Assembly (NCBI RefSeq): GCF_003933745.1
Contig: NZ_RSEB01000001.1
Coordinates: 496,001-560,000, forward strand
Direction of reading: 5' to 3'
DNA from: Glycomyces terrestris
Lineage (GTDB): Bacteria; Actinomycetota; Actinomycetes; Mycobacteriales; Micromonosporaceae
Length of the DNA: 64,000 nucleotides
The notes under the pieces were generated by a model that saw only the letters and a program-made list of their open reading frames with translations, had not been told where the DNA came from and searched no databases. The stretch's first letter is position 1. Every line of letters starts with the position of its first letter. The position numbers and the translations under genes are program-made. Shown here one piece after another: positions 44,322 to 57,878 of this stretch.

Positions 44322-45449
44322 TCAGCGTCGCCGCTCCGCGCCGGCCTCGATCGCGGCCCGGTAGACCTCCAGCAGCCGGGCGGCGACCTCGGGCCAGTCG
44401 TAGCGGCGGACCCACTCGTTCGCCCGCTCGACGTAGGCCGTGCGCAGCGCCGTGTCGTCGAGGAGCCGCCCGGCCTTCGCGGCGAGGTCGGCGGCGTCGC
44501 CGACGGCGAACAGCTCCCCCGCGCGGCCGTCGTCCAGGACCGAGCGGAACGCCTCGATGTCGCTGGCGAGCACGCAGGTGCCGGCGGCCATGGCCTCGGT
44601 GAGGATCATGCCGAAGGACTCGCCGCCGGTGTTCGGGGCGACGTACAGGTCGACGCCGGCGAGCATCGACGCCTTCTCCTCGTCCGAGACCGCGCCGAGG
44701 AAGCGCACCCGGGAGGCGGTCCCGGGGTCGAGCCCGGCGGTGGCGGCCTCGGGGTCGCCGCGGCCGACGACGAGGAGGTGCAGGTCGGGGCGGTCGGCGG
44801 CCAGGCGCGCGAAGGCGTCCCGCAGGATCGGGAAGCCCTTGCGGGGCTCGGAGAAGCGGCCCATGAACCCGATCGTGGGGCCCTCGGGCCGGTCGGCGAG
44901 CGGCGCGGCCTTGCGGTAGAACGCGACCGGGACGCCGTTGGGGATCTCGACGGCGCCGCCGCCGAGGTGCTCGACCTGGACCTTGCGCGCGTACGCGCTC
45001 ACCGCGATCCGCGCCGAGAGGTTCTCCAGGACCAGCTGCGCCATGTGCTTGCCGGCCGCGAGCATCCGCGAGCGCGTCATCGCGGTGTGGAAGGTCGCCA
45101 CGACCGGGCAGCGAGCGTTGAGCACCGCCAGGCACGACAGGCTCGGCGTGAGCGGCTCGTGGACGTGGATGACGTCGAAGCCGCCCTCGTTGCACCACTT
45201 GCGGACCCGCGCGGCCGAGAGCGGCCCGAACGCCAGGCGCGCGATCGACCCGTTGTAGGGCACGGCGACGGCCTTGCCGCCGGAGACGACGAAGTCGGGC
45301 AGGTGCTCGGTGTCGGTGGCCGGGGCCAGGACCGAGACGTCGTGGCCGGCGTCGATGAGGGTCTCGGCCAGGTCGCGGATGTGGAGCTGGACGCCGCCGG
45401 GGACGTCGAAGGAGTACGGGCTGACGATCCCGATCCGCAGGTCGCCCAT
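44322..45449 (-). CDS. pimA: Phosphatidylinositol mannosyltransferase PimA
   Basis: This 375-residue GT4 enzyme adds the first mannose from GDP-mannose to phosphatidylinositol at the inner face of the membrane. The N-terminus [20 protein letters not shown] and the segment [23 protein letters not shown] are close to mycobacterial PimA. The GDP-mannose site shows [13 protein letters not shown] (about 195-207), and the E-x7-E motif is in [17 protein letters not shown] (about 273-289). It starts one base after the patA stop. Confidence 0.94.
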
Positions 45450-45450
45450 G

Positions 45451-46335
45451 TCAGGGCCGCACCGCGAAGTCGGCGGTCCAGAACCGCTGGAGCATGTGCC
45501 AGTCCGCCGGGTGGGCGCGGATGCCCTCCTCGAACGCGTCGGCCACGCGCTGGGTGGTGGACGCCAGGCGCTCGCGCAGCGGCCCGGCGCCGGTGTCGAC
45601 CGGACCCGAGATCCGGCAGACGGCCCGGTCCGGCTCGTAGTGGATGGCGGCGGTGAACAGCTCGACCCGGTTGCGGATCGCGAGCAGCGCCGGGCCGGAG
45701 GGGAAGGTCGTGGCCTCCCCGAAGAACTTCACCTCGGTGCCCGAGCGGGCCAGGTCGCGGTCGGCGACGAGCGCGACCACGTGCCCGGCGTTCAGCGCTT
45801 CGCTCAGGGCCGCTTGGGGGTTGCGGTCGCCGCCGGAGGTCGGGACGATGCGCAGCCCCAGCGACTCGCGGTAGGCGAGGAAGCGCCGGTAGACGCCTTC
45901 GGGCTTGAGCCGCTCGGCGACGGTGGTGACCGGGTCGCCGGAGACGCGCGAGACCCAGGCGCCGGCGAGGTCCCAGTTCCCGCAGTGCGGCAGGGCCACG
46001 ATGGAGCCGAGGCCGCGCTTCGCGCGGGCGCTGACCGGCTCGAAGCCGATCATCTCGAAGCGGCGCCGGAGGTGCGCGTCGTCCATCGAGGGGAGCCGGA
46101 ACGCCTCGATCCAATACCGGGCGTAGGAGCGCATGGCGTCGCGCACGAGCGCCTCGTCCGGCTCGCCGCCGACGACGCGGGCGAGGTTGCGGCGCAGCTG
46201 CTGCACGCCCCGGCCGTTCCTGCGGGCGGCCCGGTCGGCGAAGCGCCTGCTCAGGGCGTATGCCGCGGACTCGGGGAGGAGCCGCACGCCGCGCCAGGCG
46301 GCCAGGTAGGCCAGCTCGGTGAGGCGCTCAGGCAT
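45451..46335 (-). CDS. patA: Phosphatidylinositol mannoside acyltransferase
   Basis: This 294-residue enzyme of the lysophospholipid/lipid A acyltransferase family acylates the mannose of PIM. The H-x4-D-like catalytic motif is in VALPHCGNWDLAGAW (about 112-126). GHVVALVADRDLARSGTEVK (about 178-197) and the acceptor-region FPSGPALLAIRNRVEL follow. ATG 46335 overlaps the pgsA stop by eight bases (ATGCCTGA), the same overlap as in gltBD. The order pgsA-patA-pimA is as in M. tuberculosis. Confidence 0.92.
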   Translation of the reverse strand: MPERLTELAYLAAWRGVRLLPESAAYALSRRFADRAARRNGRGVQQLRRNLARVVGGEPDEALVRDAMRSYARYWIEAFRLPSMDDAHLRRRFEMIGFEPVSARAKRGLGSIVALPHCGNWDLAGAWVSRVSGDPVTTVAERLKPEGVYRRFLAYRESLGLRIVPTSGGDRNPQAALSEALNAGHVVALVADRDLARSGTEVKFFGEATTFPSGPALLAIRNRVELFTAAIHYEPDRAVCRISGPVDTGAGPLRERLASTTQRVADAFEEGIRAHPADWHMLQRFWTADFAVRP

Positions 46336-46957
46336 CGACGTGCTCCTCACTCGCGGCGAACGCGGCGCGGGCGTGGACGACGCGCTGGACCACGGTGATC
46401 GAGGAGAGGACCGCGAGCAGGCCCATGCCGGCCTCGAGCGCGAACGGCACGCCGAGGACCTCGGCGAGGACCGCGAGGCCGCCGAGGATGAGGCGCTCGG
46501 GGCGCTCGGCGATGCCGACGTTGCACTCGATGCCCAGGCTCTCGGCGCGGGCCTTCACATAGGACACGACCTGGCCGGAGACCAGGGCGGTGAGCGCGAG
46601 CGCGGCGCCGGCGAACCGGTCCTCGGTGAGCAGGAAGTACGCGAGGCTGGCGAAGATCGCGCCGTCGGCGAGGCGGTCGCAGACGGAGTCGAGGAGCGCG
46701 CCGAAGCGGCTGGTGGTGCCCTTGACGCGGGCGATCGCGCCGTCGAACATGTCGGTGAGCACGGACAGGGAGACGACGACGAGCCCGGCGAGCAGGCGGC
46801 CCTGCGAGAGCAGGGTGAGGGAGGCGGCGGCCACGATCGCGGTGCCGGTGATGGTGACGGCGTTGGCGGACACGCCCGCGCGGATGAGGAGTCTCGCGGC
46901 GGCGTCGACGTAGCGGCGTACGCCCGCTCGGCCGGAGGTCCGAAGGAACTTCGCCAT
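46328..46957 (-). CDS. pgsA: Phosphatidylinositol phosphate synthase (CDP-alcohol phosphotransferase)
   Basis: This 209-residue membrane enzyme joins CDP-diacylglycerol to inositol phosphate. The family motif D-x2-D-G-x2-A-R-x8-G-x3-D-x3-D is read as DMFDGAIARVKGTTSRFGALLDSVCD (about 68-93). It has about six membrane helices. ATG 46957 follows AGGAG at short spacing (three bases). In this setting the product feeds PimA and PatA. Confidence 0.93.
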   Translation of the reverse strand: MAKFLRTSGRAGVRRYVDAAARLLIRAGVSANAVTITGTAIVAAASLTLLSQGRLLAGLVVVSLSVLTDMFDGAIARVKGTTSRFGALLDSVCDRLADGAIFASLAYFLLTEDRFAGAALALTALVSGQVVSYVKARAESLGIECNVGIAERPERLILGGLAVLAEVLGVPFALEAGMGLLAVLSSITVVQRVVHARAAFAASEEHVDA

Positions 46958-47070
46958 GGTCTCCTGGTTTCTCGGCAGCGCCCAAGTGGGTGTTCGGGCG
47001 GATGGGTGCGGCGCCCGCTCCGGCCGACCGGAACGGGTCCATAGCACTGACTCTAACCGTGCCCGGGCGG

Positions 47071-47616
47071 TCACACCCGCTCCCATGCGGTCGCGAGTCG
47101 GTCGCGGGTGTCCGAGAGGTATTGCGGGAGGGTCTTGGTGCGCCCGATGATCGGCATGAAGTTCGCGTCCCCGCCCCAGCGCGGGACGACGTGCTGGTGC
47201 AGGTGCCCGGCGATGCCGGCCCCGGCGACCTGGCCCTGGTTCATGCCGATGTTGAACCCGTGGGCGCCCAGGGCCGAGCGCAGGACGGTCATGGTGCGCT
47301 GGATGAGCGCGCCCATCTCGGCGACCTCGTCGACGTCGAGGTCGGTGTAGTCGGGGACGTGCCGGAAGGGCACGACCATGAGGTGCCCGGAGTTGTACGG
47401 GTACTTGTTCAGCACCACGAACATCGACTGGCCGCGGGCGACGATGTTGCCCTCGCGGTCGTCGAGCTTGGGGATCTCGCAGAAGGGGCAGCCCTCGATG
47501 TCCGCGTCGTCGCCGGTGGGCTTGCCCTCCCCCTGGATGTAGGCCATGCGGTGCGGCGTCCACAGCCGCTCGTACCCGTCGGGGACGCCGACGCCTTCGC
47601 CTTCGCGCTCTTCCAC
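47071..47616 (-). CDS. HIT-family nucleotide hydrolase or phosphorylase
   Basis: This 181-residue protein has the histidine triad HLHQHVVPRW (about 139-148) and NIGMNQGQVAGAGIAGHLHQ before it, plus two cysteines in CPFCEIP (about 43-49) that could bind zinc. The M. tuberculosis counterpart in the same position (Rv2613c) is an AP4A phosphorylase, so that activity is likely. It is the first gene of the PIM operon, about 110 bases before pgsA. Confidence 0.9.
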   Translation of the reverse strand: MEEREGEGVGVPDGYERLWTPHRMAYIQGEGKPTGDDADIEGCPFCEIPKLDDREGNIVARGQSMFVVLNKYPYNSGHLMVVPFRHVPDYTDLDVDEVAEMGALIQRTMTVLRSALGAHGFNIGMNQGQVAGAGIAGHLHQHVVPRWGGDANFMPIIGRTKTLPQYLSDTRDRLATAWERV

Positions 47617-47685
47617 GGGACGATCCTAGGCCACCGGGTCGGAAACCGGTAACCCGACGAAATCCCCAGGACACGCCTCCTCGGT

Positions 47686-47691
47686 TAAGCT
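47686..47691 (+). promoter_or_regulatory. -10 box (TAAGCT) of a leaderless antiporter transcript
   Basis: TAAGCT, preceded by T, lies exactly six bases before the GTG of the antiporter gene, and there is no ribosome binding site. Confidence 0.5.
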
Positions 47692-47697
47692 CCGGAC

Positions 47698-49191
47698 GTG
47701 ACGTTGCCCCAGCTGTACCTCGTAGTGCTCATCGGCTGCGTCACCGTGCTCGTCTCCATCGCCGCGATCCGGGCGACCCACCGGCTCGGGCTCCCCGCGC
47801 TGCTGGTGTTCCTCGCGGCCGGCATGGTCCTGGGCGAGGACGGCGTCGGCATCCCCTTCGAGGACTTCGAGCTGGCGCAGGTGCTGGGGACGTTCGCGCT
47901 CGCGCTCATCCTCATCGAGGGCGGCCTGTCGACGCGCTGGCGGGCGATCTCGGGGCAGCTGGCGCCGGCGTCGATGCTCGCGACGGCCGGCGTCGGCGTC
48001 TCGGTGACGGTGACGGCGCTGGGCGCGCACTACCTGCTCGGCTTCGAGTGGCAGACGGCCCTGGTCATGGGCGCGGTCCTGGCGTCGACGGACGCGGCGG
48101 CGGTGTTCTCGGAGCTGCGCGGGGTGGGGCTGCCGAAGCGGCTGAGCGGGACGCTGGAGGCCGAGTCGGGCTTCAACGACGCGCCCGCGGTGATCCTGGT
48201 GCTGGCGTTCTCGGCGGCCGAGGGGCTGCCGAACACGTTCGAGCTGCTCGGGCTGCTGGTGTGGGAGCTGGCCGTCGGCTCGCTCCTCGGCCTGGCGGTG
48301 GGCGCGGGCGGGGCGTGGCTGCTGCGGCGGCTGGCGTTGCCGGTGTCGGGCCTGTACCCGCTCGCGGTGTTCAGCCTGGGCATGGCCGCGTTCGCGGCGG
48401 CCGGGACGCTGCACGCGTCGGGGTTCATCGCCGCGTACCTGGCGGCGCTGGTGCTGGGGAACTCGCGGCTGCCGCACCGGGCCGCGACGCAGTCGTTCGC
48501 GAGCGGCCTGGGCTGGGTGGCGCAGCTGGGCATGTTCGTGATGCTCGGGCTCCTCGCGTCCCCGGACAACCTGCTGCGGATGCTGGTGCCGGCGCTGGTC
48601 CTCGGCGCGGTCCTGACGCTGGTGGCGCGGCCGGTGTCGGCGTGGCTCAGCCTGGTCCCGTTCCGGTTCTCCGCCAAGGAGAAGGCGCTGCTGTCGTGGG
48701 CGGGCCTGCGCGGGGCGGTGCCGATCGTCCTGGCGACGATCCCCCGCTCCGAGCACCTGCCGGGCGCGCAGTCGCTGTGGGACCTGGTGTTCATCCTCGT
48801 CGTGGTGTTCACGCTGCTCCAGAGCCCGACCCTGCCCTGGGTCGCGAAGCGGCTCGGGCTGGCGCAGTCGGGCGTGGTGCAGGAGGTCGACATCGAGACG
48901 GCCCCGCTGGACGCCGTGGACGGCGAGGTCCTCACCATCACCGTCCCCAAGGGGTCGGGCCTGGCGGGCATCCGGATCTTCGAGCTGCGCCTGCCCGAGG
49001 GCAGCGCCATCGCGGGCGTGGTCCGCGTCGACCGGCTCTTCGTGCCCGCCAAGGCCGACCGGCTGCGCTCGGGCGACCAGCTCATCGTCGTCACCACGCC
49101 GCGCCTGCGCGAGGCCACCGAGCAGCGCCTCACGGCCCTGGCGCGGGCGGGGCGGCTCGCTCGCTGGCTCGGCGAGACCGGCAAGGACTGA
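47698..49191 (+). CDS. Potassium/proton antiporter with C-terminal TrkA-C domain
   Basis: This 497-residue protein has 12 to 13 membrane helices of the CPA (NhaP2/CvrA-like) cation-proton antiporter fold. Key transport residues are visible in GAVLASTDAAAVFSELRGVG (about 123-142) and LEAESGFNDAPAVILVLAF (about 153-171). A cytoplasmic TrkA-C/RCK-C domain (about 410-480, LTITVPKGSGLAGIRIFELR) should sense nucleotides or ions. It begins an accessory block lying between the HIT gene and thrS, which are adjacent in M. tuberculosis. The stop overlaps an ATG in frame with the lipoprotein gene downstream. Confidence 0.9.
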   Translation: MTLPQLYLVVLIGCVTVLVSIAAIRATHRLGLPALLVFLAAGMVLGEDGVGIPFEDFELAQVLGTFALALILIEGGLSTRWRAISGQLAPASMLATAGVGVSVTVTALGAHYLLGFEWQTALVMGAVLASTDAAAVFSELRGVGLPKRLSGTLEAESGFNDAPAVILVLAFSAAEGLPNTFELLGLLVWELAVGSLLGLAVGAGGAWLLRRLALPVSGLYPLAVFSLGMAAFAAAGTLHASGFIAAYLAALVLGNSRLPHRAATQSFASGLGWVAQLGMFVMLGLLASPDNLLRMLVPALVLGAVLTLVARPVSAWLSLVPFRFSAKEKALLSWAGLRGAVPIVLATIPRSEHLPGAQSLWDLVFILVVVFTLLQSPTLPWVAKRLGLAQSGVVQEVDIETAPLDAVDGEVLTITVPKGSGLAGIRIFELRLPEGSAIAGVVRVDRLFVPAKADRLRSGDQLIVVTTPRLREATEQRLTALARAGRLARWLGETGKD

Positions 49192-49226
49192 TGCAACCGA
49201 TCCGGCGGCGGGGGCGTCCTACCGCC

Positions 49227-49643
49227 ATGCGCATGAAGCTCCTCGGTGCCCTGGCACTCCTGGCCCTCGTCCCCGCGGCCGCGGCGTGCGGGGTCGCCAC
49301 ACCGACCCTGGCCCCCGCCGACCCGGCGACCGACGCGGCCGAGGTGGGTCCCGCCGCCCCGGCGGAGTCCGAGCAGGAGACCGGCACGCTCGTCGTCGCG
49401 GTGACCGACGACGCCGGCACGCCCCTGGAGGGCGTCCCGCTCGAACTCACCGCGCTCGACATCGACAACACCGTCCCCGACTGGGAGTCCGCGCCGCTGA
49501 CCGGCCCCGACGGCACGATCGAGATCACCGGCCTCCTCGGCGAGTACCAGGTCGCGACCGTCCGCGACGGCACGAACGACCTCGGCACGGTCGTCGTCGA
49601 ACCGGGCGCGGCCGCCCGCCTCGACCTCGTCCTCGCGTCCTAG
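49227..49643 (+). CDS. Lipoprotein with a beta-sandwich domain
   Basis: This protein of about 138 residues has a lipoprotein signal peptide (KLLGALALLALVPAAAACG) with the lipid-accepting cysteine at about residue 21. After an Ala/Pro-rich linker, residues 50-138 form a carboxypeptidase-regulatory or SpaA-like beta-sandwich (GTLVVAVTDDAGTPLEGVPL). The start is uncertain: ATG 49227, ATG 49233, or ATG 49191, which overlaps the antiporter stop. It probably sits on the outer face of the membrane. No specific role can be assigned. Confidence 0.78.
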   Translation: MRMKLLGALALLALVPAAAACGVATPTLAPADPATDAAEVGPAAPAESEQETGTLVVAVTDDAGTPLEGVPLELTALDIDNTVPDWESAPLTGPDGTIEITGLLGEYQVATVRDGTNDLGTVVVEPGAAARLDLVLAS

Positions 49644-49728
49644 ACGCCCGCGCCCGCGGGGGAACCGCGACGTGCGGCGGTGGGCCATACTGGAGTCACG
49701 GCCGTTCCCTTCCCGCGTGGAGGCGCGT

Positions 49729-51318
49729 GTGTCCGGACACCCCCCGAGCCAGTCTGAATCCCAGAATCCGTCCCGCAGCCAGACCGTCTTCGACGAGTGC
49801 CTGAACCTGACGCGCGGGCTGCCGCATCTCGCCGGTCTGCACGGCGAGCTGGCCGCCGCGCGCGAACGGCTCGGCCGGCCCCTGCGCGTCGCCATCGCCG
49901 GCCAGGCCAGCCGCGGCAAGTCCACCCTGGTCAACGCCATGATCGGCCGCGACGAGCTCGCGGTGGGTCGGGCCGAGACCACCGCGGTCGTCACCGAGCT
50001 GTCCTACGCCGACCGCCCCGCCGTCACCGTCAGGTACGAGGACGGGAGCGTCGCCCGCGGCCGCCCCGAGGACCTGCACCGGCTGACCGTCCGCGGCGGC
50101 GACGGCGAGCGCCCCGCACCGGGGGTCGCGCGGGTCGAGTACGGCGTCCCGAGCGAGTTCCTGAAGTCCTTCCGGCTGCTCGACACGCCCGGACTGGCGA
50201 GCGTGTACGAAGAGGACGGCTCGGCGACCGAGGAGGCCCTCGGGCTCCGGTCCCACCGCGACAGCGAGTCGGCCCTGCGCGCCGCCGACGCGCTCGTCTT
50301 CCTCATCGACAGCGAAGTCCACGAGGAGGACTTCGCGCTCGTCGAGCGGTTCGCGGAGAAGACCCCCGGGAAGGTCACCCCGGTCTACGCGATCGGCGTC
50401 TACGCCAAATGCGACCTCCATTGGCGCGCGAGCGATCCCGAGGCCGACCCGCTCGAGCGGATGATGCGGGCCTCCGGCGGCCGGCAGCCGGGGCCGCAGC
50501 TCTCGCGGTACTTCTTCGTCACCCTCCCGGTCGCGGCCGTCGCCGCCCACGGCGCGGCCCGGCTCACCCCCGGGATGCTCGCGACCCTGCGGGCCCTGTC
50601 GCGGACGGACCCGGCCGAGCTGGCGTCGCGGCTGCGATCAGGACGCCGGTTCGTCGACGGCGCCGACGGCGCGGGCGAGACCACCGCCGAGGACCGGCTG
50701 GCGCTGTTCGAGGCACTCCAGGCGTGGGGCGTGTACCGGGCCTGCCGCCACCTCGCGAAGCACCCCGAGGCCGGAGGGGACGAGCTGCGGGCGCACCTGC
50801 GGTCGATCAGCGGCGTCGACACGCTCAACGAGCGGCTGTCGCAGCACTTCGGGAACCGCGCGGCGTTCATCAAGCTCCACTCCGGCCTCCACCGGGTGCG
50901 GCGCAGCGCCGCCGCGGCCAAGCCGGGCGCGGACCGGGCCGAGCTGGCGGTCCTCGCGCTCGTCGAACGCAAGCTCAACTCGCTCGAATACGAGGACTCC
51001 AGCCTCGACGAGCTGAACGCCCTGGCCGCGTTCTACGCCGGCGTCACCGGGTTCACCGACGAGGAGCGCGAGGAGATCCTGCGCGTCACCGGCGAGCACG
51101 GCACCCGCTGCGAGCAGCGGCTCGGCCAGGAGGAGGGGACGCCGCTGCGGGCGCTGGAGGCGCACGCCGTGGCGCGGGTCGCGCACTGGGCGCGCCGCTC
51201 CGAGGGCGGCTCGCTGCCCGGCCGCAGCCGCTACGTCGCGCGGATCATCCGCGACAGCTACGAACGGATCCTCAACCGCGTCAGGCAGGCCCATGCGCTG
51301 CTGGACATCAGGGAGTGA
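49729..51318 (+). CDS. Dynamin-like GTPase (first of two)
   Basis: This 529-residue protein is a bacterial dynamin-family GTPase, IniA/IniC-like in general form. The P-loop is GQASRGKST (58-66), the switch 2 motif is DTPG (152-155), and the G4 position reads AKCD (in YAKCDLHW) in place of the usual NKxD or TKxD. The C-terminal half is helical, with KLNSLEYEDSSLDELNALAA. I see no strong membrane helix, so membrane contact would be peripheral. GTG 49729 follows GGAGG. It opens a four-gene operon with a GrpE-like protein two bases downstream, a second dynamin and an Hsp70. Confidence 0.85.
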   Translation: MSGHPPSQSESQNPSRSQTVFDECLNLTRGLPHLAGLHGELAAARERLGRPLRVAIAGQASRGKSTLVNAMIGRDELAVGRAETTAVVTELSYADRPAVTVRYEDGSVARGRPEDLHRLTVRGGDGERPAPGVARVEYGVPSEFLKSFRLLDTPGLASVYEEDGSATEEALGLRSHRDSESALRAADALVFLIDSEVHEEDFALVERFAEKTPGKVTPVYAIGVYAKCDLHWRASDPEADPLERMMRASGGRQPGPQLSRYFFVTLPVAAVAAHGAARLTPGMLATLRALSRTDPAELASRLRSGRRFVDGADGAGETTAEDRLALFEALQAWGVYRACRHLAKHPEAGGDELRAHLRSISGVDTLNERLSQHFGNRAAFIKLHSGLHRVRRSAAAAKPGADRAELAVLALVERKLNSLEYEDSSLDELNALAAFYAGVTGFTDEEREEILRVTGEHGTRCEQRLGQEEGTPLRALEAHAVARVAHWARRSEGGSLPGRSRYVARIIRDSYERILNRVRQAHALLDIRE

Positions 51319-51320
51319 CG

Positions 51321-51878
51321 ATGATGAGAGACCTCCTGCGGCTCCCGGGGCGCGGCGGGCGGCGCTCGCGGCGGCGCCGGGAGCTGACCGCGCAGATCGC
51401 CTACCGCGTCGCCGAGCTGTACGGGGTGGGCGACGGGCGGGAGGACCTGTCGGCCCGGCGGATCGACGAGGTCGCGGAGCTCGAGTTCGCGCTCGCGGTC
51501 CTCGACGGCCTCGCCCCGGTCGAGGCCGAGGCCGAGCGCGCCGCGCCGCCGCCCGGCCAGGGGCCCCCGGAGATCGTGCTCAAGCTCGTGCGCGTCCACG
51601 ACCGGCTCGACATGGCGGCCGACCGGGACGCCGAGTCGGCGCCGCTCGTCAAGCGGTTCCGGAACGACGTCCTCGAGCTGCTCGCCGTTTCCGGAGCGGA
51701 CCTGGTCGAGCGGGACGGGCCCCTCCAGCCCCCGCTGCACGAGGTCCTCTCGACCGTCCCGACCGCCGACCCCGCCCTGGTCCACCACGTGGCCCGCACC
51801 GTGCGGCCCGGCGTCCGCTGGAACGGCCGGCTCATCCGGCCCCAGCAGGTCGTCGCGTACGTGGAGGAGGGCCGGTGA
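51321..51878 (+). CDS. GrpE-like protein (putative nucleotide exchange factor)
   Basis: This protein of 185 residues has a very basic start (GRGGRRSRRRRELTAQIAYR). Its C-terminal part resembles the GrpE beta-domain: VKRFRNDVLELLAVSGADLV, then PPLHEVLSTVPTADPALVHH and VRPGVRWNGRLIRPQQVVAY. The pattern D/E-P-x-x-H-E, then a GT/RT, then G-x-x-x-x-x-x-L-R-P-x-x-V is that of GrpE, although the long N-terminal dimer helix is short or missing. I infer that it exchanges ADP on the Hsp70 encoded downstream. The gene lies two bases after the first dynamin gene, and its stop overlaps the GTG of the second dynamin gene (GTGA). Confidence 0.68.
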   Translation: MMRDLLRLPGRGGRRSRRRRELTAQIAYRVAELYGVGDGREDLSARRIDEVAELEFALAVLDGLAPVEAEAERAAPPPGQGPPEIVLKLVRVHDRLDMAADRDAESAPLVKRFRNDVLELLAVSGADLVERDGPLQPPLHEVLSTVPTADPALVHHVARTVRPGVRWNGRLIRPQQVVAYVEEGR

Positions 51879-53743
51879 CGGGCGTGCACGACGCGGTCGC
51901 GGCACTGCGGCGCGAGGTCCTCGACCTGTACCGGGAGGTCGTCCGCGTCACCGGGGCGGACCTCTCGGAGGCGTCGCGGGTGCGCCTGCGCGAGAGCCGC
52001 TCCCGGCTCGCCTCCGACAGGTACACGGTCACGGTGTGCGGCGAGTACAGCCGCGGCAAGTCGAGCCTGATCAACGCGCTCGTCGGCCGCCCCGACCTGC
52101 TGCCGGTCGGCATCCGCGCGACGACCTCGACGATCGCCACGATCCACTGGGGCGCCGAGGCGAAGGCGGCGGTCCGCACCGACGGCGAGGACGGGCGCCC
52201 CGTCCAGCGGGAGGTCCCGGTCGGCCTCCTCGCCCGGTACGGCTCCCAGGCCGGCAACCCGCGCAACCGCGAGCGCGTCCGCTCCATCGACGTCACCGTG
52301 CCGTCCCCGGTGCTGCGCCGCGGCCTGGTCCTGGTCGACACGCCCGGGATCGGCACGCTCTACCCCGAGCACACCGCCGTGACGAACGCGCTCCTCCCGC
52401 GCACCGACGGCATCCTGTTCGTGTGCAACGTGATCGACCCGATGTCGAAGCCGGAGCTGGAGTTCCTGCGGCGCGCCAACCGGTGCTGCCCGACGGTGCT
52501 GGTCGCCGCGACCAAGGCCGACCGGATCTACGACGCCGCGGGCGCCGTCGCCGACATCGCCGAGCGGATCGGCGGGGCGCTCGACCTCCCGCCGGAGCAG
52601 GTCCGGGTCGTTGCCGTCTCGGCGACCGAGCGCGAGGCCGAGCTCGCCGAGGGCCGAGAGGACGGCGACTCCGGCTTCGCCGAGCTGGAACGGCAGCTGT
52701 GGGAGGGCCTGGCGGCGACCTGCGTCGCGCCGCGCGTCGAGCGGGCGCTCGGCGAGATCACCGCGGTCGTGCGCGAGTCGGCCGCGCCGGTCGTCAACGA
52801 GTTCGCGAGCATGGGTCCGGGCACCGACCTCGGCGAGACCCTGGAGCAGCTCGCGAAGGAGCGGGCGCGCGCCACCGAGCTGCGCGGCCCGACCGCCCCG
52901 TGGCGGATGGAGCTGCGGCGCCGCGTCGGCGAGATCGAGCGGGAGCTGCGCGTCGAACTCGACCGGCGCTGCCAGGAGGCCAAGCGGGAGTTCAGGTTCC
53001 AGGCCGAGAACCCCACCGGCGGGGCCGACGCCCGGCAGCTCGCCGGCCAGGTGATCGCCGAGATCGGCGCGATCGTCGACGAGGTCGAGGCCGCGATGAT
53101 CGAGCGGACCAGCCTCGCCGCCGCGTCGATCGCCGAGCGCATCGCGGTGCCGCTGACGGTGGAAGGCACCGGGCACGAGCGGTACCTGCCGGTGATCGCC
53201 GTGCCGGCGGGCAAGGAGCCCGGCCGCAAGCGCGACCTGAGCTGGCTCCGCACCGGATTCGACTCCTCATGGGCCGCAGGGGCGTTCGGCGCCACGCTCG
53301 GCGGCGCGGTGGCGTCGGTCTTCGCGCCGGGGGCCGGCATGGTCATCGGCGGGATCGTCGGCGGGCTCCTGTTCAACATCATCGGGTTCATCAGCGGCGC
53401 CAGCGGGGAGTTCCAGCAGCAGCGCGGCGAGCAGCGCATCCACCAGGCCAAGCGCATGGCCCGCCTCATGGTGCCGGCCCTGGACCGGGAGATCCTCGAG
53501 ATCGGGCGACGGTTCGACGCCGTGGTCCGGCGGCAGCGGAGCGATCTGGAGCACCGCGTCGAGGACGAGGTGGAGCGGTCGCTGACCAGCCTCGAAGCCT
53601 CGGTGCAGCGGCTGGAGGCGTCCGCCGACCGCGACGCGCGGGGCCTGGAGGACCGCCTCGCCGAGCTGCGCCGCCGGAACGAGGAGTACGAGGTCCTCAC
53701 CGGGCGGCTGAACGCCCTCCACGACCGGCTGACACGGCTCTGA
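51875..53743 (+). CDS. Dynamin-like GTPase (second, with membrane-insertion segment)
   Basis: This 622-residue GTPase has P-loop GEYSRGKSS (56-64), a switch region TTSTIATIHWG, DTPGIGTLYPEHT (about 154-166) and G4 TKADRIYDA (about 213-221). A long helical stalk follows. At about 466-510 there is a glycine-rich hydrophobic stretch (GGAVASVFAPGAGMVIGGIV) that should insert into or tether to the membrane. A C-terminal coiled coil ends the protein. This layout fits bacterial dynamins that remodel membranes. GTG 51875 follows GGAGGAGG and overlaps the upstream stop. It differs strongly from the first dynamin, so the pair may form a heteromeric complex. Confidence 0.87.
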   Translation: MTGVHDAVAALRREVLDLYREVVRVTGADLSEASRVRLRESRSRLASDRYTVTVCGEYSRGKSSLINALVGRPDLLPVGIRATTSTIATIHWGAEAKAAVRTDGEDGRPVQREVPVGLLARYGSQAGNPRNRERVRSIDVTVPSPVLRRGLVLVDTPGIGTLYPEHTAVTNALLPRTDGILFVCNVIDPMSKPELEFLRRANRCCPTVLVAATKADRIYDAAGAVADIAERIGGALDLPPEQVRVVAVSATEREAELAEGREDGDSGFAELERQLWEGLAATCVAPRVERALGEITAVVRESAAPVVNEFASMGPGTDLGETLEQLAKERARATELRGPTAPWRMELRRRVGEIERELRVELDRRCQEAKREFRFQAENPTGGADARQLAGQVIAEIGAIVDEVEAAMIERTSLAAASIAERIAVPLTVEGTGHERYLPVIAVPAGKEPGRKRDLSWLRTGFDSSWAAGAFGATLGGAVASVFAPGAGMVIGGIVGGLLFNIIGFISGASGEFQQQRGEQRIHQAKRMARLMVPALDREILEIGRRFDAVVRRQRSDLEHRVEDEVERSLTSLEASVQRLEASADRDARGLEDRLAELRRRNEEYEVLTGRLNALHDRLTRL

Positions 53744-53768
53744 CCGTCCAGACAGGAGCGACCCCCGC

Positions 53769-55823
53769 ATGGCCATCGGATACGGCATCGACTTCGGCAC
53801 CTCGACCTCGGCGATCATCGTCGTCGACGACCGGGGCAAGACCACGCTGGTCTCCGATCCGGAGTCCGCGCACACCTCGTACACGTTCCCGTCGAGCGCG
53901 TTCGTGAACGACGCCGGCCGCCTCATCGTCGGCACGGCGGCCGAACGGCAGAAGCAGCTGAACCTGGGCGCCTTCCGGACCCAGTTCAAACGCGAGTTCC
54001 GGTCCACGGTCCCGAGCGTGCTCGGCGGCCGCACCCTGCGCACCGACGAGCTCGTGTCGGCACTGCTCGCGCGCCTGCGCGAGTGCGCCATGGACCGCGT
54101 CCCCACCCCGCCGAGCCAGGTCGTCATCACCGTGCCGGCCTCGTGGGACGAGGCGCAGTGCGAGCGGATGAAGGACGCGGCCGAGCGGGCCGGCTTCGAC
54201 CCCGCGACCGTGACCCTCCTGCCCGAGCCCGTGGCGGCCCTCCGGTACGCCTTCGAAGGCGACCTGCTCATCGCCGAGAGCACCGTCCTGGTGTACGACC
54301 TCGGCGGCGGCACGTTCGACTGCGCGCTCGCGCGCGGGAACACCGCCGGGGGCTACACGGTCGTGGGCCTCCCCGGCGGCCGCCCCCACATCGGCGGGAT
54401 CGACTTCACCACCGCGCTCATGACGACGGTGGCGCAGGGGTTCGAACCGCCGCGCGAGGACTGGCTGCACCTCGACCCCGACGACGACGCCGCTTCCCGC
54501 ATGCACCTGAGCTTCCGCGAGGAGTGCGAGAACACCAAGCGCGTGCTGTCCACCCAGCCGTCGGCGTGGCTGAACCTGCCCGAGGGCGGACCGATCGAGA
54601 TCGACCTGGAGGTCTTGGAGGAGGCGATCGGCGAGATGCTGGAGGAGACCGTCGCCGCCTGCAACGAGCTGCTGTACGCGGCCGACCTGGGCTGGGGCGA
54701 GGGCGACCAGGTCGTCCCGGTCGGCGGCAGCACCCGGCTGCCGCTCATCGCGAAGCTGCTGCGGGACCACGCCCGCACCGTCGTGAAGATCGACGAGCCG
54801 GAGCTCGCGGTGGCGCGCGGCGCGGCCCTCCACGCCAAGGACCTCCTCAACGGCGTCGAGGACCGCGTCACGGAAGCGGAGGCCGCACCCGAAGAGGCCG
54901 CGGCGCCCGAGGAGGCCGCGACCCACACGACGGTGCCGCTGCCGAGCACCGACGAGAAGCCCGCCCCGGCGCGGCCGACGGCCTCGGACTATCTGGACTA
55001 CTACGGCGACTATCCGTCGGCGACGCGCAAGGCCGACACGGCGAAGCTCGCCTGGACGATGCTCGGCGCCTGTGTCGCCCTGGCCGGGCTCGTGAAGCTC
55101 GGGCTCATGGCCTACACGGGACTCGCCGCATTCGTGGAGGAGACGGGCCCGGACTGGCTGCCGCCGGGCTGGAGCGCGGGCATCGCGGGCACCGCCTGCA
55201 TGCTGGCCGCCCTGATCGTCGTGGTCCGGACCGAAAGCCACGTCGAGGACAGCCGGCCCGGCACCATGGCGACTATGTGGATCACCTTGTCCTACATGGC
55301 GATCTGCGGTGCCACGATCTGGTGGCACTTCTCGGGCTGGGACGGCGCCGCGATTCCGATCGTGGTCCTGCTCAACCTGGCGCTCATCACCTATCTCGTC
55401 GCGGTCGAGCACGTCTCGCACCTCTACCTCGGCATCGGTGAGGCGCTTCCCGACACCTGGCCGACCCTCCTGGCCGCCGGCGGCACCGCCCTCTTCACCT
55501 GGTGGTCCGCGCTCGCCTTCGGCAAGCTCGCCGCCTGGGCGGAACCGCGGCTGCCCGAAGTCTTCACGACCGGATGGATGGGCGGGATCGCCGGAACGGC
55601 CGCGGCGCTCGTGGCCGTCGTCATCACCCTCGCTCTGCTCGTCTTCCTGGACGATGAGATGGCCGTCGACGGATTCCAGATCCTGTTCGCGTTCCTGTGC
55701 CTGGTGTTGACTGCCGCGGCCGTCATCGTGGACTACAACCTGGCCGGCACTGCGGGGACGGTCGCGGCGTTCGCGCTCGGGAACCTCGCGGCCGTGTCGT
55801 TCCTCGTCGCCTCCACAGACTGA
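53769..55823 (+). CDS. Hsp70-family ATPase fused to a polytopic membrane domain
   Basis: This 684-residue protein has an N-terminal Hsp70/actin-fold ATPase (about 1-355): phosphate-1 motif GYGIDFGTSTSAIIVVD, catalytic-domain VITVPASWDEAQCERMKDAA, phosphate-2 motif VYDLGGGTFDCAL (about 175-187) and adenosine motif VPVGGSTRLPLIAKLL (about 317-332). No substrate-binding domain follows. Instead there is an Ala/Glu/Pro-rich linker (about 360-410) and about eight membrane helices (about 427-684), a part that I do not recognise. The ATG follows AGGAG. It starts 25 bases after the second dynamin gene and shares an operon with a GrpE-like protein. I infer an ATP-driven membrane partner of the two dynamins. 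Confidence 0.85.
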   Translation: MAIGYGIDFGTSTSAIIVVDDRGKTTLVSDPESAHTSYTFPSSAFVNDAGRLIVGTAAERQKQLNLGAFRTQFKREFRSTVPSVLGGRTLRTDELVSALLARLRECAMDRVPTPPSQVVITVPASWDEAQCERMKDAAERAGFDPATVTLLPEPVAALRYAFEGDLLIAESTVLVYDLGGGTFDCALARGNTAGGYTVVGLPGGRPHIGGIDFTTALMTTVAQGFEPPREDWLHLDPDDDAASRMHLSFREECENTKRVLSTQPSAWLNLPEGGPIEIDLEVLEEAIGEMLEETVAACNELLYAADLGWGEGDQVVPVGGSTRLPLIAKLLRDHARTVVKIDEPELAVARGAALHAKDLLNGVEDRVTEAEAAPEEAAAPEEAATHTTVPLPSTDEKPAPARPTASDYLDYYGDYPSATRKADTAKLAWTMLGACVALAGLVKLGLMAYTGLAAFVEETGPDWLPPGWSAGIAGTACMLAALIVVVRTESHVEDSRPGTMATMWITLSYMAICGATIWWHFSGWDGAAIPIVVLLNLALITYLVAVEHVSHLYLGIGEALPDTWPTLLAAGGTALFTWWSALAFGKLAAWAEPRLPEVFTTGWMGGIAGTAAALVAVVITLALLVFLDDEMAVDGFQILFAFLCLVLTAAAVIVDYNLAGTAGTVAAFALGNLAAVSFLVASTD

Positions 55824-55861
55824 CGCGGGCGCCTCCGGCCGAGCGGCCGGGGGCGCCCGCG
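55824..55861. terminator. Bidirectional terminator between the Hsp70 gene and thrS
   Basis: A 17-bp stem with one T-G pair and a GAGC loop starts immediately after the Hsp70 stop. Confidence 0.8.
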
Positions 55862-55871
55862 TGCGCACTTG

Positions 55872-57878
55872 CTATGCGGCCGAAGGCCCCTCGTTCACGC
55901 GGGAGCGGACGACCTCGGCCACGTGGGCGATCGCCTCGTCGGCGGGGACGCCGTTGCGCTGGGAGCCGTCGCGGTAGCGGAAGGAGACGGTCCCGGCGTT
56001 CTGGTCGTCGTCGCCGGCGATGATCATGAACGGGATCTTCTGGAGCTGGGCGTTGCGGACCTTCTTCTGCATGCGGTCGTCGGAGTGGTCGACCTCGGCG
56101 CGCAGGCCCTCGGCGCGCAGGCGCGAGAAGAACGCCTCCAGGTAGTCGGCGTTCTCATCCCGGACCGGGATGCCCACGGCCTGGACCGGCGCGAGCCAGG
56201 CCGGGAACGCGCCCGCGTAGTGCTCGGTGAGGACGCCGAAGAAGCGCTCGATCGAGCCGAAGAGGGCGCGGTGGATCATGACCGGCTGCTTGCGGGTGCC
56301 GTCCGACGCCGAGTACTCCAGGCCGAAGCGGACCGGCTGGTTGAAGTCGAGCTGGATGGTCGACATCTGCCAGGTGCGGCCGATCGCGTCGCGGGCCTGC
56401 ACGGAGATCTTGGGGCCGTAGAAGGCCGCCCCGCCCGGGTCGGGCACGAGTTCGAGCCCGGACTCCTCGGCGACCTGGCGCAGGGTCTCGGTGGCCGACT
56501 CCCACAGCTCATCGGAGCCGATGAACTTCTCGGAGTCGCCCTTGGTGGAGAGCTCCAGGTAGAAGTCGTTGAGCCCGTAGTCGCGCAGCAGCCGGAGCAC
56601 GAACTCGAGCAGGCTCTTGATCTCGCCGGGCGCCTGCTCCTCGGTGCAGTAGATGTGCGCGTCGTCCTGGGTCAGGCCGCGGACGCGGGTGAGGCCGTGC
56701 ACGACGCCCGACTTCTCGTACCGGTACACGGTCCCGAACTCCGACAGGCGCAGCGGCAGCTCCCGGTAGGAGCGCCCCCGCGACTGGAAGATCAGGTTGT
56801 GCATCGGGCAGTTCATGGCCTTGAGGTAGTAGTTCGCGCCCTCGAGCTCCATCGGCGGGTACATGGTGTCCGCGTAGTACGGCAGGTGCCCGGAGGTGTG
56901 GAACAGGTTGTCCTTGGTGATGTGCGGGGTGTTCACCACCTCGTACCCGGCCTCGCGCTGGCGTTCGCGCAGGTAGGACTCCATCTCGTGCCGGATGATG
57001 CCGCCCTTGGGGTGGAACACCGGGAGCCCGGAGCCGAGCTCGTCGGGGAACGAGAAGAGGTCGAGCTGCTGCCCGAGCTTGCGGTGGTCGCGCTTCTCGG
57101 CCTCGGCGAGGCGCGCGAGGTAGTCCTTCTGCTCCTGGACGGTCGGCCACGCGGTGCCGTAGATGCGCTGGAGCTGCGGGTTCTTCTCCGAGCCCATCCA
57201 GTACGCGGCGGCCGAGCGCATGATCTTGACGGCGCCGATGAGCTTGGTCGAGGGCAGGTGCGGGCCGCGGCAGAGGTCGGACCAGACCTTCTCGCCGGTG
57301 CGGTCGCGGTTGTCGTACGCGGTGAGTTCGCCGCCGCCGACCTCCATGACCTCGTCGGCGTCGGTGCCCTCGCCCTTGGTCTCGATGAGTTCGAGCTTGT
57401 ACGGCTCGTTCGCGAGCTCGGTGCGGGCCTCGTCGAGCGAGGAGAACTTGCGGCGGTGGAAGGTCTGCCCCTGCTTGATGATCTGGAGCATGCGCTTCTC
57501 GACGGCCTTGAGGTCGTCGGGGTTGAACGGCTCGGCGACGTCGAAGTCGTAGTAGAAGCCGTCGGTGATGGGCGGGCCGATGCCGAGCTTGGCCTCGTGG
57601 AGCTCCTGGACGGCCTGGGCCATGACGTGCGCGGCCGAGTGGCGCAGCACGTTGAGCCCGTCGGGGCTGTTCAGCGGGACGGGCTCGACCTTCTGGTCGG
57701 TCTCGGGGGCCCACGAGAGGTCGCGCAGCCGCCCTTCGGCGTCGCGGAGGACGACGATCGCGTGCGGCCCTGAGACGGGGAGGCCGGCCTCGGCCACCGC
57801 GTCGGCACCGGTAGTGCCAGCCGTCACCCAGAGGGGTTCGACGACGCCTGGACTCTGATTCGGTGCTGCGGAAGCCAC
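55872..57878 (-). CDS. thrS: Threonyl-tRNA synthetase
   Basis: This 668-residue class II synthetase charges tRNA-Thr. It has a short TGS-like N-terminal part, the editing domain with [20 protein letters not shown] and [10 protein letters not shown], motif 2 around FRYEKSGV-type residues (read here as [20 protein letters not shown]), zinc ligands including the cysteine in [15 protein letters not shown], and a C-terminal anticodon domain. GTG 57878 follows GAGGAG; ATG 57890 is in frame but has no ribosome site. In M. tuberculosis thrS lies directly before the HIT gene; here 8 kb separates them. Confidence 0.95.

Follow-up and report, generated by a model that had tools for sequence, protein, structure and literature searches.

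Why would an operon for two dynamin-type GTPases also carry genes for a GrpE relative and an Hsp70? The question is raised by four genes of Glycomyces terrestris at 49729..55823 of a 64,000-nucleotide stretch of contig NZ_RSEB01000001.1, which we call the window. They encode, in this order, the dynamin-type GTPase dyn1, a GrpE-like protein (mini-GrpE), the IniA-like dynamin dyn2 and an Hsp70 without a substrate-binding domain. All four are complete frames on the + strand, and their spacing of 2, -4 and 25 bases within 6.1 kb is identical to that given in the original prediction, which had been made from the letters of this DNA; the start of dyn2 overlaps the mini-GrpE stop by 4 bases. The reading that we favour, and to which we give an even chance, is that the four genes would specify one membrane machine, in which the assembly state of dyn1 and dyn2 is set by the membrane-anchored, substrate-domain-less Hsp70 and reset by mini-GrpE. 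Labels beginning with L, G, P and C denote loci, genomes, proteins and contigs of this analysis; G000 is the window's own genome.

The four proteins

Both GTPases pass the Pfam Dynamin_N cut-off of 27 bits, dyn1 (49729..51318, 529 aa) with 47.7 bits and dyn2 (51875..53743, 622 aa) with 79.6 bits. The first has the P-loop GQASRGKST and a DTPG motif, resembles solved dynamins over its GTPase part only, and is the less IniA-like of the two; hydropathy gave no hydrophobic segment in it. The second aligns with the solved mycobacterial IniA 6j72 over residues 36-599, nearly its full length (E 1e-25), its family profile finds the same structure with E 5e-57, and hydropathy places one hydrophobic segment near residue 488. 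Two divergent dynamin-type GTPases had been claimed in the original prediction; that description holds, with only dyn2 IniA-like from end to end. The Leo models of PADLOC also match both proteins, and dyn2 reaches 53.3 bits with LeoBC over residues 31-584 and 68.7 bits with LeoA. Judged by these sequences, dyn1 and dyn2 are predicted to oligomerise on nucleotide and to remodel membranes.

The Hsp70 (53769..55823, 684 aa) scores 131.7 bits with Pfam HSP70 (cut-off 20.6) and consists of an ATPase domain at about residues 1-362, a linker and a membrane domain. Residues D8, K74, E153, D177, G179-181 and D184 (GGG-F-D motif), which we take to be catalytic, are invariant in a 35-row alignment of Hsp70 homologues. 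With its ATPase domain complete, the protein is the Hsp70 ATPase that it had been called from the outset. There is no substrate-binding domain, since the Pfam HSP70 match ends at model position 377 of 599, and this absence rules out a classical chaperone. Behind the ATPase domain, six hydrophobic segments were called, and the membrane domain is made of two similar units of about 115 aa (27% identity, E 2.5e-10; 39% in the relative P0134). The window Hsp70 (P0004) also matches MreB_Mbl weakly, its 27.0 bits being just the cut-off value (27).

The window genome has its best Hsp70 match in a full-length, DnaK-like protein encoded on another contig (C14). In G000 there are 16 Hsp70 matches, of which some are fragments of a single gene, and each of the 22 genomes of the genus has several. 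Many of the matches per genome are ATPase domains without a substrate domain, several with hydrophobic segments and long further parts. One kind, an Hsp70 of about 450 aa with a C-terminal hydrophobic segment, occurs in 21 of the 22 genus genomes and was not found among them in G020; 20 copies form one tree clade, and the copy of G019 is cut by a contig end.

The protein encoded between the dynamins (51321..51878, 185 aa) scores 18.4 bits with Pfam GrpE, where the cut-off is 25.8, and is far under the cut-offs of the NCBIfam GrpE models; two relatives are also under the latter. Relatives in equivalent positions pass the Pfam cut-off in L013 (38.9 bits), L053 (35.2), L251 (28.3), L252 (41.7) and L267 (38.2), and a profile of five mini-GrpEs finds E. 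coli GrpE 1dkg with E 1.9e-5. A structure model built from 53 sequences is confident for residues about 83-185, of which about 84-182 form two helices and a beta domain in GrpE-like fashion; the N-terminal 80 or so residues, in the place of the long dimer helix of GrpE, have low model confidence. Its 11 matches in the PDB with E <= 1e-3 are all GrpE, with 1dkg at the top (1.3e-7). TM-scores against these solved GrpEs are modest (0.35-0.54) and the rmsd exceeds 20, so the helices are placed differently. Because five relatives pass Pfam, the family profile finds a solved GrpE and the model has the GrpE fold, we identify the 185-aa protein, on sequence and model, as a GrpE relative, and we call it mini-GrpE because several relatives have just 85-115 aa. 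The reduced GrpE-like protein of the original prediction is borne out by these relatives and structure matches, but not by the protein's own Pfam and NCBIfam scores. From its sequence it is predicted to exchange nucleotide on the Hsp70. Some mini-GrpE matches in G123, G129, G145 and G182 hold an in-frame TGA (alignment overrun, pseudogene or sequencing error).

Spread and co-inheritance of the genes

The profile of five mini-GrpE sequences gave matches with E <= 1e-3 in 114 of the 249 genomes of the order and with E < 1e-10 in 67. The latter number is a lower bound, since two of the 14 weaker matches that we examined (L112, L117) are dynamin cassettes; ten others adjoin an Hsp70 without a dynamin and two are ambiguous. 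A single-sequence search had confined the mini-GrpE set to 3 of the 22 genus genomes, and the profile search showed it to be too insensitive. Among 86 regions fetched by GrpE (L008-L013, L043-L122), two (L066, L104) had no gene calls. Both dynamins were present in 65 of the 84 that were counted, all 65 with GrpE, by which they had been selected. The remaining 19 comprise two copies of another operon, four loci with a mini-GrpE match where a dynamin was uncalled, and 13 other GrpE matches; our gene caller was trained on the codon use of the window and is weak on AT-richer genomes.

We therefore give more weight to loci chosen by dyn1 alone, the best 80 of 227 relatives, from named genomes. Here dyn2 was found in 79 of 80 loci and GrpE between the dynamins in 78 of those 79. 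The exceptions are L162, which lies at a contig end with no dyn2 called, and Nakamurella endophytica L124, which has no GrpE. These are not 80 independent cases, because most are from Pseudonocardiaceae. Among 121 called pairs, 68 show the 4-base overlap of GrpE and dyn2 that the window has. Within the order, the dynamin-GrpE-dynamin core is widespread. Co-occurrence of all four genes among relatives, which the original prediction had proposed as a check, is confirmed for this core (78 of 79); the exact window-type four-gene set is patchy (3 of 22 genus genomes).

Several observations concern the cassettes themselves. The window genome has a second cassette, of the commoner kind (L043, contig C10 around 357641), with a GrpE bearing N-terminal hydrophobic segments, an acidic 161-aa protein, a divergent LuxR-type regulator and no adjoining Hsp70. 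Two Glycomyces genomes (L010 9473-12593, L012 6748-12779) have a different operon, with a protein with a J-like start, an Hsp70 of about 500 aa, a GrpE-like match and a 921-aa protein. The L171 cassette has gene lengths like those in Kibdelosporangium (L155); its contig bears the label Rhodococcus rhodnii, which may be wrong. Proteins with repeated D-x-D-x-DG adjoin cassettes at L053 10101-10793 (DUF6802), L107 13350-14594 and L268 9194-10015.

Among 394 class genomes, with the best 2 or 4 candidates scored in each, 4 have the window-type Hsp70, and the same four were returned whether the query was an Hsp70-dynamin fusion or the Hsp70 of L251. In all four (the window, L251, L252 and L253) it adjoins a dynamin pair. 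L251 consists of dyn1, a C39 peptidase, GrpE, a 187-aa protein, dyn2 and Hsp70, with a PP2C gene and a kinase-like gene (below cut-off) upstream; L252 of dyn1, GrpE, dyn2, an IS605-type transposase and Hsp70; and L253 of dyn1, dyn2 and an Hsp70 with a WD40 propeller, with no GrpE called. The window type is rare and scattered: it occurs in 3 of 22 genus genomes, its own included, and in 1 of 200 genomes of the family of L251's host, which is that host itself.

Two further loci belong here. Nonomuraea gerenzanensis (L267), found by a search with dyn2, has dyn1-GrpE-dyn2-Hsp70 in the window order; in the gene calls, two junctions are overlaps (13 and 4 bases) and one is a gap of 27. This record stood in a plasmid collection and is probably the chromosome, given its length of 11.85 Mb. 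A large protein is encoded on either side of the operon (L267 1491-3980 and 12342-14810); the two begin alike and look caspase-like by eye. On an Anabaena plasmid (L268), one strand carries an Hsp70, an unknown gene, a DO-GTPase, a second DO-GTPase (below cut-off), another unknown gene, a C39 peptidase, a 187-aa protein, dyn2 and dyn1; there is no GrpE match in this locus, and a CHAT-domain gene lies beside it. The Anabaena and L251 proteins share 46% identity (C39) and 41% (187 aa). The 187-aa family, common to L251 5998-6561 and L268 8562-9125, has no Pfam match. D-x-D-x-DG repeats precede the C39 peptidase domain on the Anabaena plasmid, and C39 genes are also present in L251 and L107.

Trees of all three large proteins separate the window, L008, L009, L251, L252, L253 and Anabaena from the commoner cassettes, with support of 100/100 for dyn1, 100/99 for dyn2 and 94/94 for Hsp70; L251-L253 had been found via their Hsp70, and L008 and L009 differ little from the window locus. 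In the Hsp70 tree, the side of the commoner cassettes includes the unlinked L260 and also L151, about 5 kb or more from its cassette. Ten loci that were copies or had poor gene calls were omitted from our first Hsp70 tree. Of the three splits, that of dyn1 is the most independent. As far as these sequences can tell, dyn1, dyn2 and Hsp70 are co-inherited.

Fusions point the same way. Ten Hsp70 homologues with a GTPase domain, among 120 listed of 134 found, were scanned. Three of them (P0139, P0234, P0239) have an Hsp70 ATPase domain followed by a full-size dynamin, and P0149 is probably another such fusion. The match of P0139 to the window Hsp70 is 47% over 355 residues and that to dyn2 (P0003) 32% over 398; its dynamin groups with the window side in the dyn2 tree. 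We rejected P0168, P0172, P0185, P0188, P0193 and P0197 as dynamin fusions; other GTPase models fit them better, though P0168, P0188 and P0193 pass the Dynamin_N cut-off.

We also surveyed the 249 order genomes for membrane-type Hsp70s, defined by similarity to the Hsp70 of about 450 aa at E <= 1e-70 with up to 6 candidates scored per genome. They occur in 91 genomes, in 65 of the 67 with mini-GrpE and 26 of the 182 without, counts that are uncorrected for relatedness; 22 of those 26 belong to one genus (g4). At least 19 of the 67 genomes, from seven families, have such an Hsp70 within 12 kb of the cassette, and a rough estimate from genome length and copy number puts the chance expectation at about one genome. 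We examined 15 linked Hsp70s: the ATPase domain is followed by a hydrophobic segment in 14 of them, and 9 lie on the cassette's strand in the gene row. In the Hsp70 tree, the linked proteins of Nakamurella and relatives (L011, L050, L051, L123, L124) and of L101, L074 and L100 fall in the clade of the 450-aa protein. The window Hsp70 stands apart as its own lineage, and the long branches of L107 and L117 are of uncertain place. Four Nakamurella-type Hsp70s have about 200 residues behind a single membrane segment, and these tails are possibly outside the cell.

Genomic setting of the window operon

The operon lies in a genome of 5.24 Mb whose closest named protein relative is from Glycomyces sambucus. 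From gene spacing, we infer that the four genes form a single transcript. No sigma-70-type promoter was seen in a scan of 49150-56000 that covered the sigma-70 type only. One terminator-like site was found in the same interval, inside dyn1, and this count is not above that of shuffled sequences. A possible leading gene (49227..49643, + strand), which ends 85 bases 5' of dyn1, encodes a 138-aa protein with a lipoprotein-like start and only sub-threshold Ig-like matches. Its position is taken by a 134-aa gene in L008, and none was called there in L009.

Upstream, Pfam identifies a Na+/H+ antiporter (47698-49191, + strand), and downstream the threonyl-tRNA synthetase gene thrS (55872-57797) converges with the operon. 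The nine further neighbours comprise, by Pfam, metabolic or housekeeping-type genes and a MerR regulator beyond thrS, and no LuxR-type regulator is among these nine. The flanking genes are similar across three Glycomyces genomes. The stretch 44322-49191 holds a row of HIT, CDP-alcohol phosphatidyltransferase, acyltransferase and glycosyltransferase genes (Pfam) with the antiporter, and the operon stands between these and thrS. In mycobacteria, thrS adjoins a comparable row of phosphatidylinositol-mannoside genes; by analogy with that arrangement, the operon may be an insertion into a membrane-lipid gene cluster. Nothing spoke for a mobile origin of the locus: the dyn2 search gave a single distant phage record and 39 from plasmids, with less than 80% of the query covered in each, and the flanking genes agree among the three Glycomyces.

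A proposed membrane machine and its rivals

GrpE releases ADP from Hsp70, and dynamins are GTP-driven oligomers at membranes. In the membrane machine that we favour, dyn1 and dyn2 would form a heterotypic dynamin pair at the membrane. The Hsp70 ATPase domain would contact a dynamin directly, most likely dyn2, in view of the fusion P0139 and the overlap of GrpE and dyn2. ATP hydrolysis and nucleotide exchange on the Hsp70 would switch dynamin assembly or disassembly, mini-GrpE would reset the Hsp70 through ADP release, and the unit might reshape or seal the cytoplasmic membrane after damage. Lacking a substrate domain, this Hsp70 is unable to bind peptides in the ordinary manner, which makes a fixed partner its likely client. 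Linkage, co-inheritance and fusion together argue for a functional unit. The original prediction had proposed one ATP- and GTP-driven unit, and the conserved order, congruent trees and natural fusions agree with it; its further suggestion that the Hsp70 assembles or disassembles dynamin polymers is plausible from the sequences. A bolder version is a dedicated bacterial Hsp70 engine, often membrane-anchored and reset by mini-GrpE, with dynamin oligomers as its only client and ATP driving their assembly or dismantling. The module would be old, present in actinobacteria and cyanobacteria, and sometimes fused. We hold this version only tentatively and would sooner doubt it than adopt it. It has a eukaryotic parallel in logic, in that Hsc70 acts on coats in membrane traffic.

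Several findings weigh against such a machine. Among the positions listed, 48 of the 67 mini-GrpE genomes have no membrane-type Hsp70 within 12 kb of the cassette, 65 of the 67 having one somewhere, and the co-occurrence counts are uncorrected for relatedness. Further linked Hsp70s are those of L107 (G142, one of the 48) and, outside the 67, L112 (G172) and L117 (G055). Six of the 15 linked Hsp70s lie on the opposite strand and therefore in separate transcription units. Anchoring of the Hsp70 is not universal, for no hydrophobic segment follows the ATPase domain in the Hsp70s of L251, L107 and Anabaena or in the fusion P0139. GrpE is not indispensable either, since none was called in L253, in the Anabaena locus or between the dynamins of L124.

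Could the genes instead be a system against invaders, in which an Hsp70/GrpE threshold switch restrains the dynamin pair until infection or insult, and the dynamins then attack or seal the membrane? GTPase systems that include HSP70 and GrpE, and another theme made of kinase-PP2C-vWA, have been described by Kaur et al. 2020 (PMC7159879) and linked to multicellular bacteria. The PP2C and below-cut-off kinase-like genes upstream in L251, the Anabaena DO-GTPases (one above and one below cut-off) with their CHAT-domain gene, and the patchy occurrence of window-type loci, one of them on a plasmid, speak for this reading, as do the matches of dyn2 to the PADLOC defence models LeoBC, along most of its length, and LeoA. 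However, by Pfam, NCBIfam and PADLOC the four window proteins include no known effector, be it a DO-GTPase, GAP1, vWA, nuclease or another kind. PADLOC matches neither mini-GrpE nor the Hsp70 and gives, besides the Leo dynamins, one negligible match among the window proteins; and the nine neighbours comprise housekeeping-type or metabolic genes and a MerR regulator, with flanks alike in three Glycomyces. We consider this account unlikely as formulated, and an anti-invader role a serious contender beside envelope stress or membrane damage. Less probable again, in our view, is an envelope-stress operon like iniBAC, where the dynamins would do the work and Hsp70/GrpE would be a sensor or signalling part rather than the driver of assembly. 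It would account for the whole-length likeness of dyn2 to IniA and for the possibly external tails of the four Nakamurella-type Hsp70s. It would also suit the cassette-side regulators, since a GerE (LuxR-type) domain is present in all seven examined (L013, L043, L062, L074, L107, L112, L254), six of them divergent, which recalls IniR (PMC5760070); L053 has a two-component pair instead. Direct contact is nevertheless favoured by the Hsp70-dynamin fusions and the GrpE/dyn2 overlap, and the window operon has neither an adjoining LuxR-type regulator nor a fifth gene.

The two remaining readings are much weaker. The Hsp70 ATPase domain might be an actin-like polymerising or scaffolding element of the MreB/FtsA kind, its GrpE binding merely inherited. 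The MreB_Mbl match at cut-off and the missing substrate-binding domain speak for this, but the sequence is clearly Hsp70 (131.7 bits) and a dedicated GrpE lies alongside, and we think it very improbable. That the genes are chance neighbours with separate functions would agree with the presence of the window type in only 3 of 22 genus genomes, but not with the same order in distant families or with the congruent trees. For dynamin-GrpE-dynamin, chance is in our view refuted (78 of 79, trees), and for the Hsp70, beside the pair in 4 of 4 genomes, it is very unlikely; as a reading of the whole set its probability is close to nil.

The operon resembles several known systems in part. It shares with mycobacterial iniBAC two unlike dynamins in one operon, dyn2 being IniA-like, and related cassettes, including the second one of the window genome (L043), share an adjoining LuxR-type regulator. 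It differs in the order dyn1-GrpE-dyn2, in the added GrpE and Hsp70, and in having no LuxR-type regulator beside it. We saw no iniB-like gene in it and no fifth gene, in a search that did not use an IniB model. Neither GrpE nor Hsp70 appears in the main text of the IniR paper as far as available (PMC5760070), and the available text of the IniA paper (PMC6715688) has 0 mentions of Hsp70 and 0 of GrpE; it does report a relatively low measured fission activity for IniA, which its authors suspected to be assisted by IniC. The DO-GTPase/GAP1-N2 systems are alike in combining a GTPase with HSP70, GrpE and membrane association, some with a second HSP70 lacking the peptide-binding domain. In the paper by Kaur et al. 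(PMC7159879), where the word 'dynamin' occurs 0 times, the GTPases of those systems form a TRAFAC family of their own; many bear zinc ribbons, and their partners are GAP1 proteins. The window GTPases, by contrast, are dynamins without GAP1 partners among the four genes, and Pfam found no DO-GTPase domain or GAP1 in the four proteins or the nine neighbours. The Campylobacter DLP pair also consists of heterotypic dynamins encoded side by side (PMC6104087, in part), and Leo proteins are akin through the models that match dyn1 and dyn2. The difference is that no chaperone partner of such a pair is named in the part of PMC6104087 at hand, which has Hsp70 in a reference only and GrpE nowhere. With DnaK-GrpE-DnaJ, the window shares the ATPase residues and the GrpE fold, but its Hsp70 has a membrane domain instead of a substrate-binding domain and the operon has no DnaJ. 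Among the matches listed from the open-licence literature, we found no description of dynamins combined with Hsp70/GrpE. What is new here is a dynamin-pair operon with its own Hsp70/GrpE cycle; dynamin pairs, and GTPase systems bearing Hsp70/GrpE, were already known.

Little is understood of how bacterial dynamins become activated, positioned and recycled. If our reading is true, a conserved GrpE/Hsp70 partner would supply a helper factor for these proteins, and the substrate-domain-less membrane Hsp70s of actinobacteria would gain a function. Dynamin control would become testable with four purified proteins, and envelope-stress dynamins would be tied to the HSP70/GrpE-bearing GTPase conflict systems. 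The dedicated Hsp70 engine, if real, would explain why a GrpE gene lies inside iniA-like dynamin-pair operons. The recurrence of related sets, sometimes fused, in distant bacteria suggests that an Hsp70 engine may drive or control bacterial dynamins.

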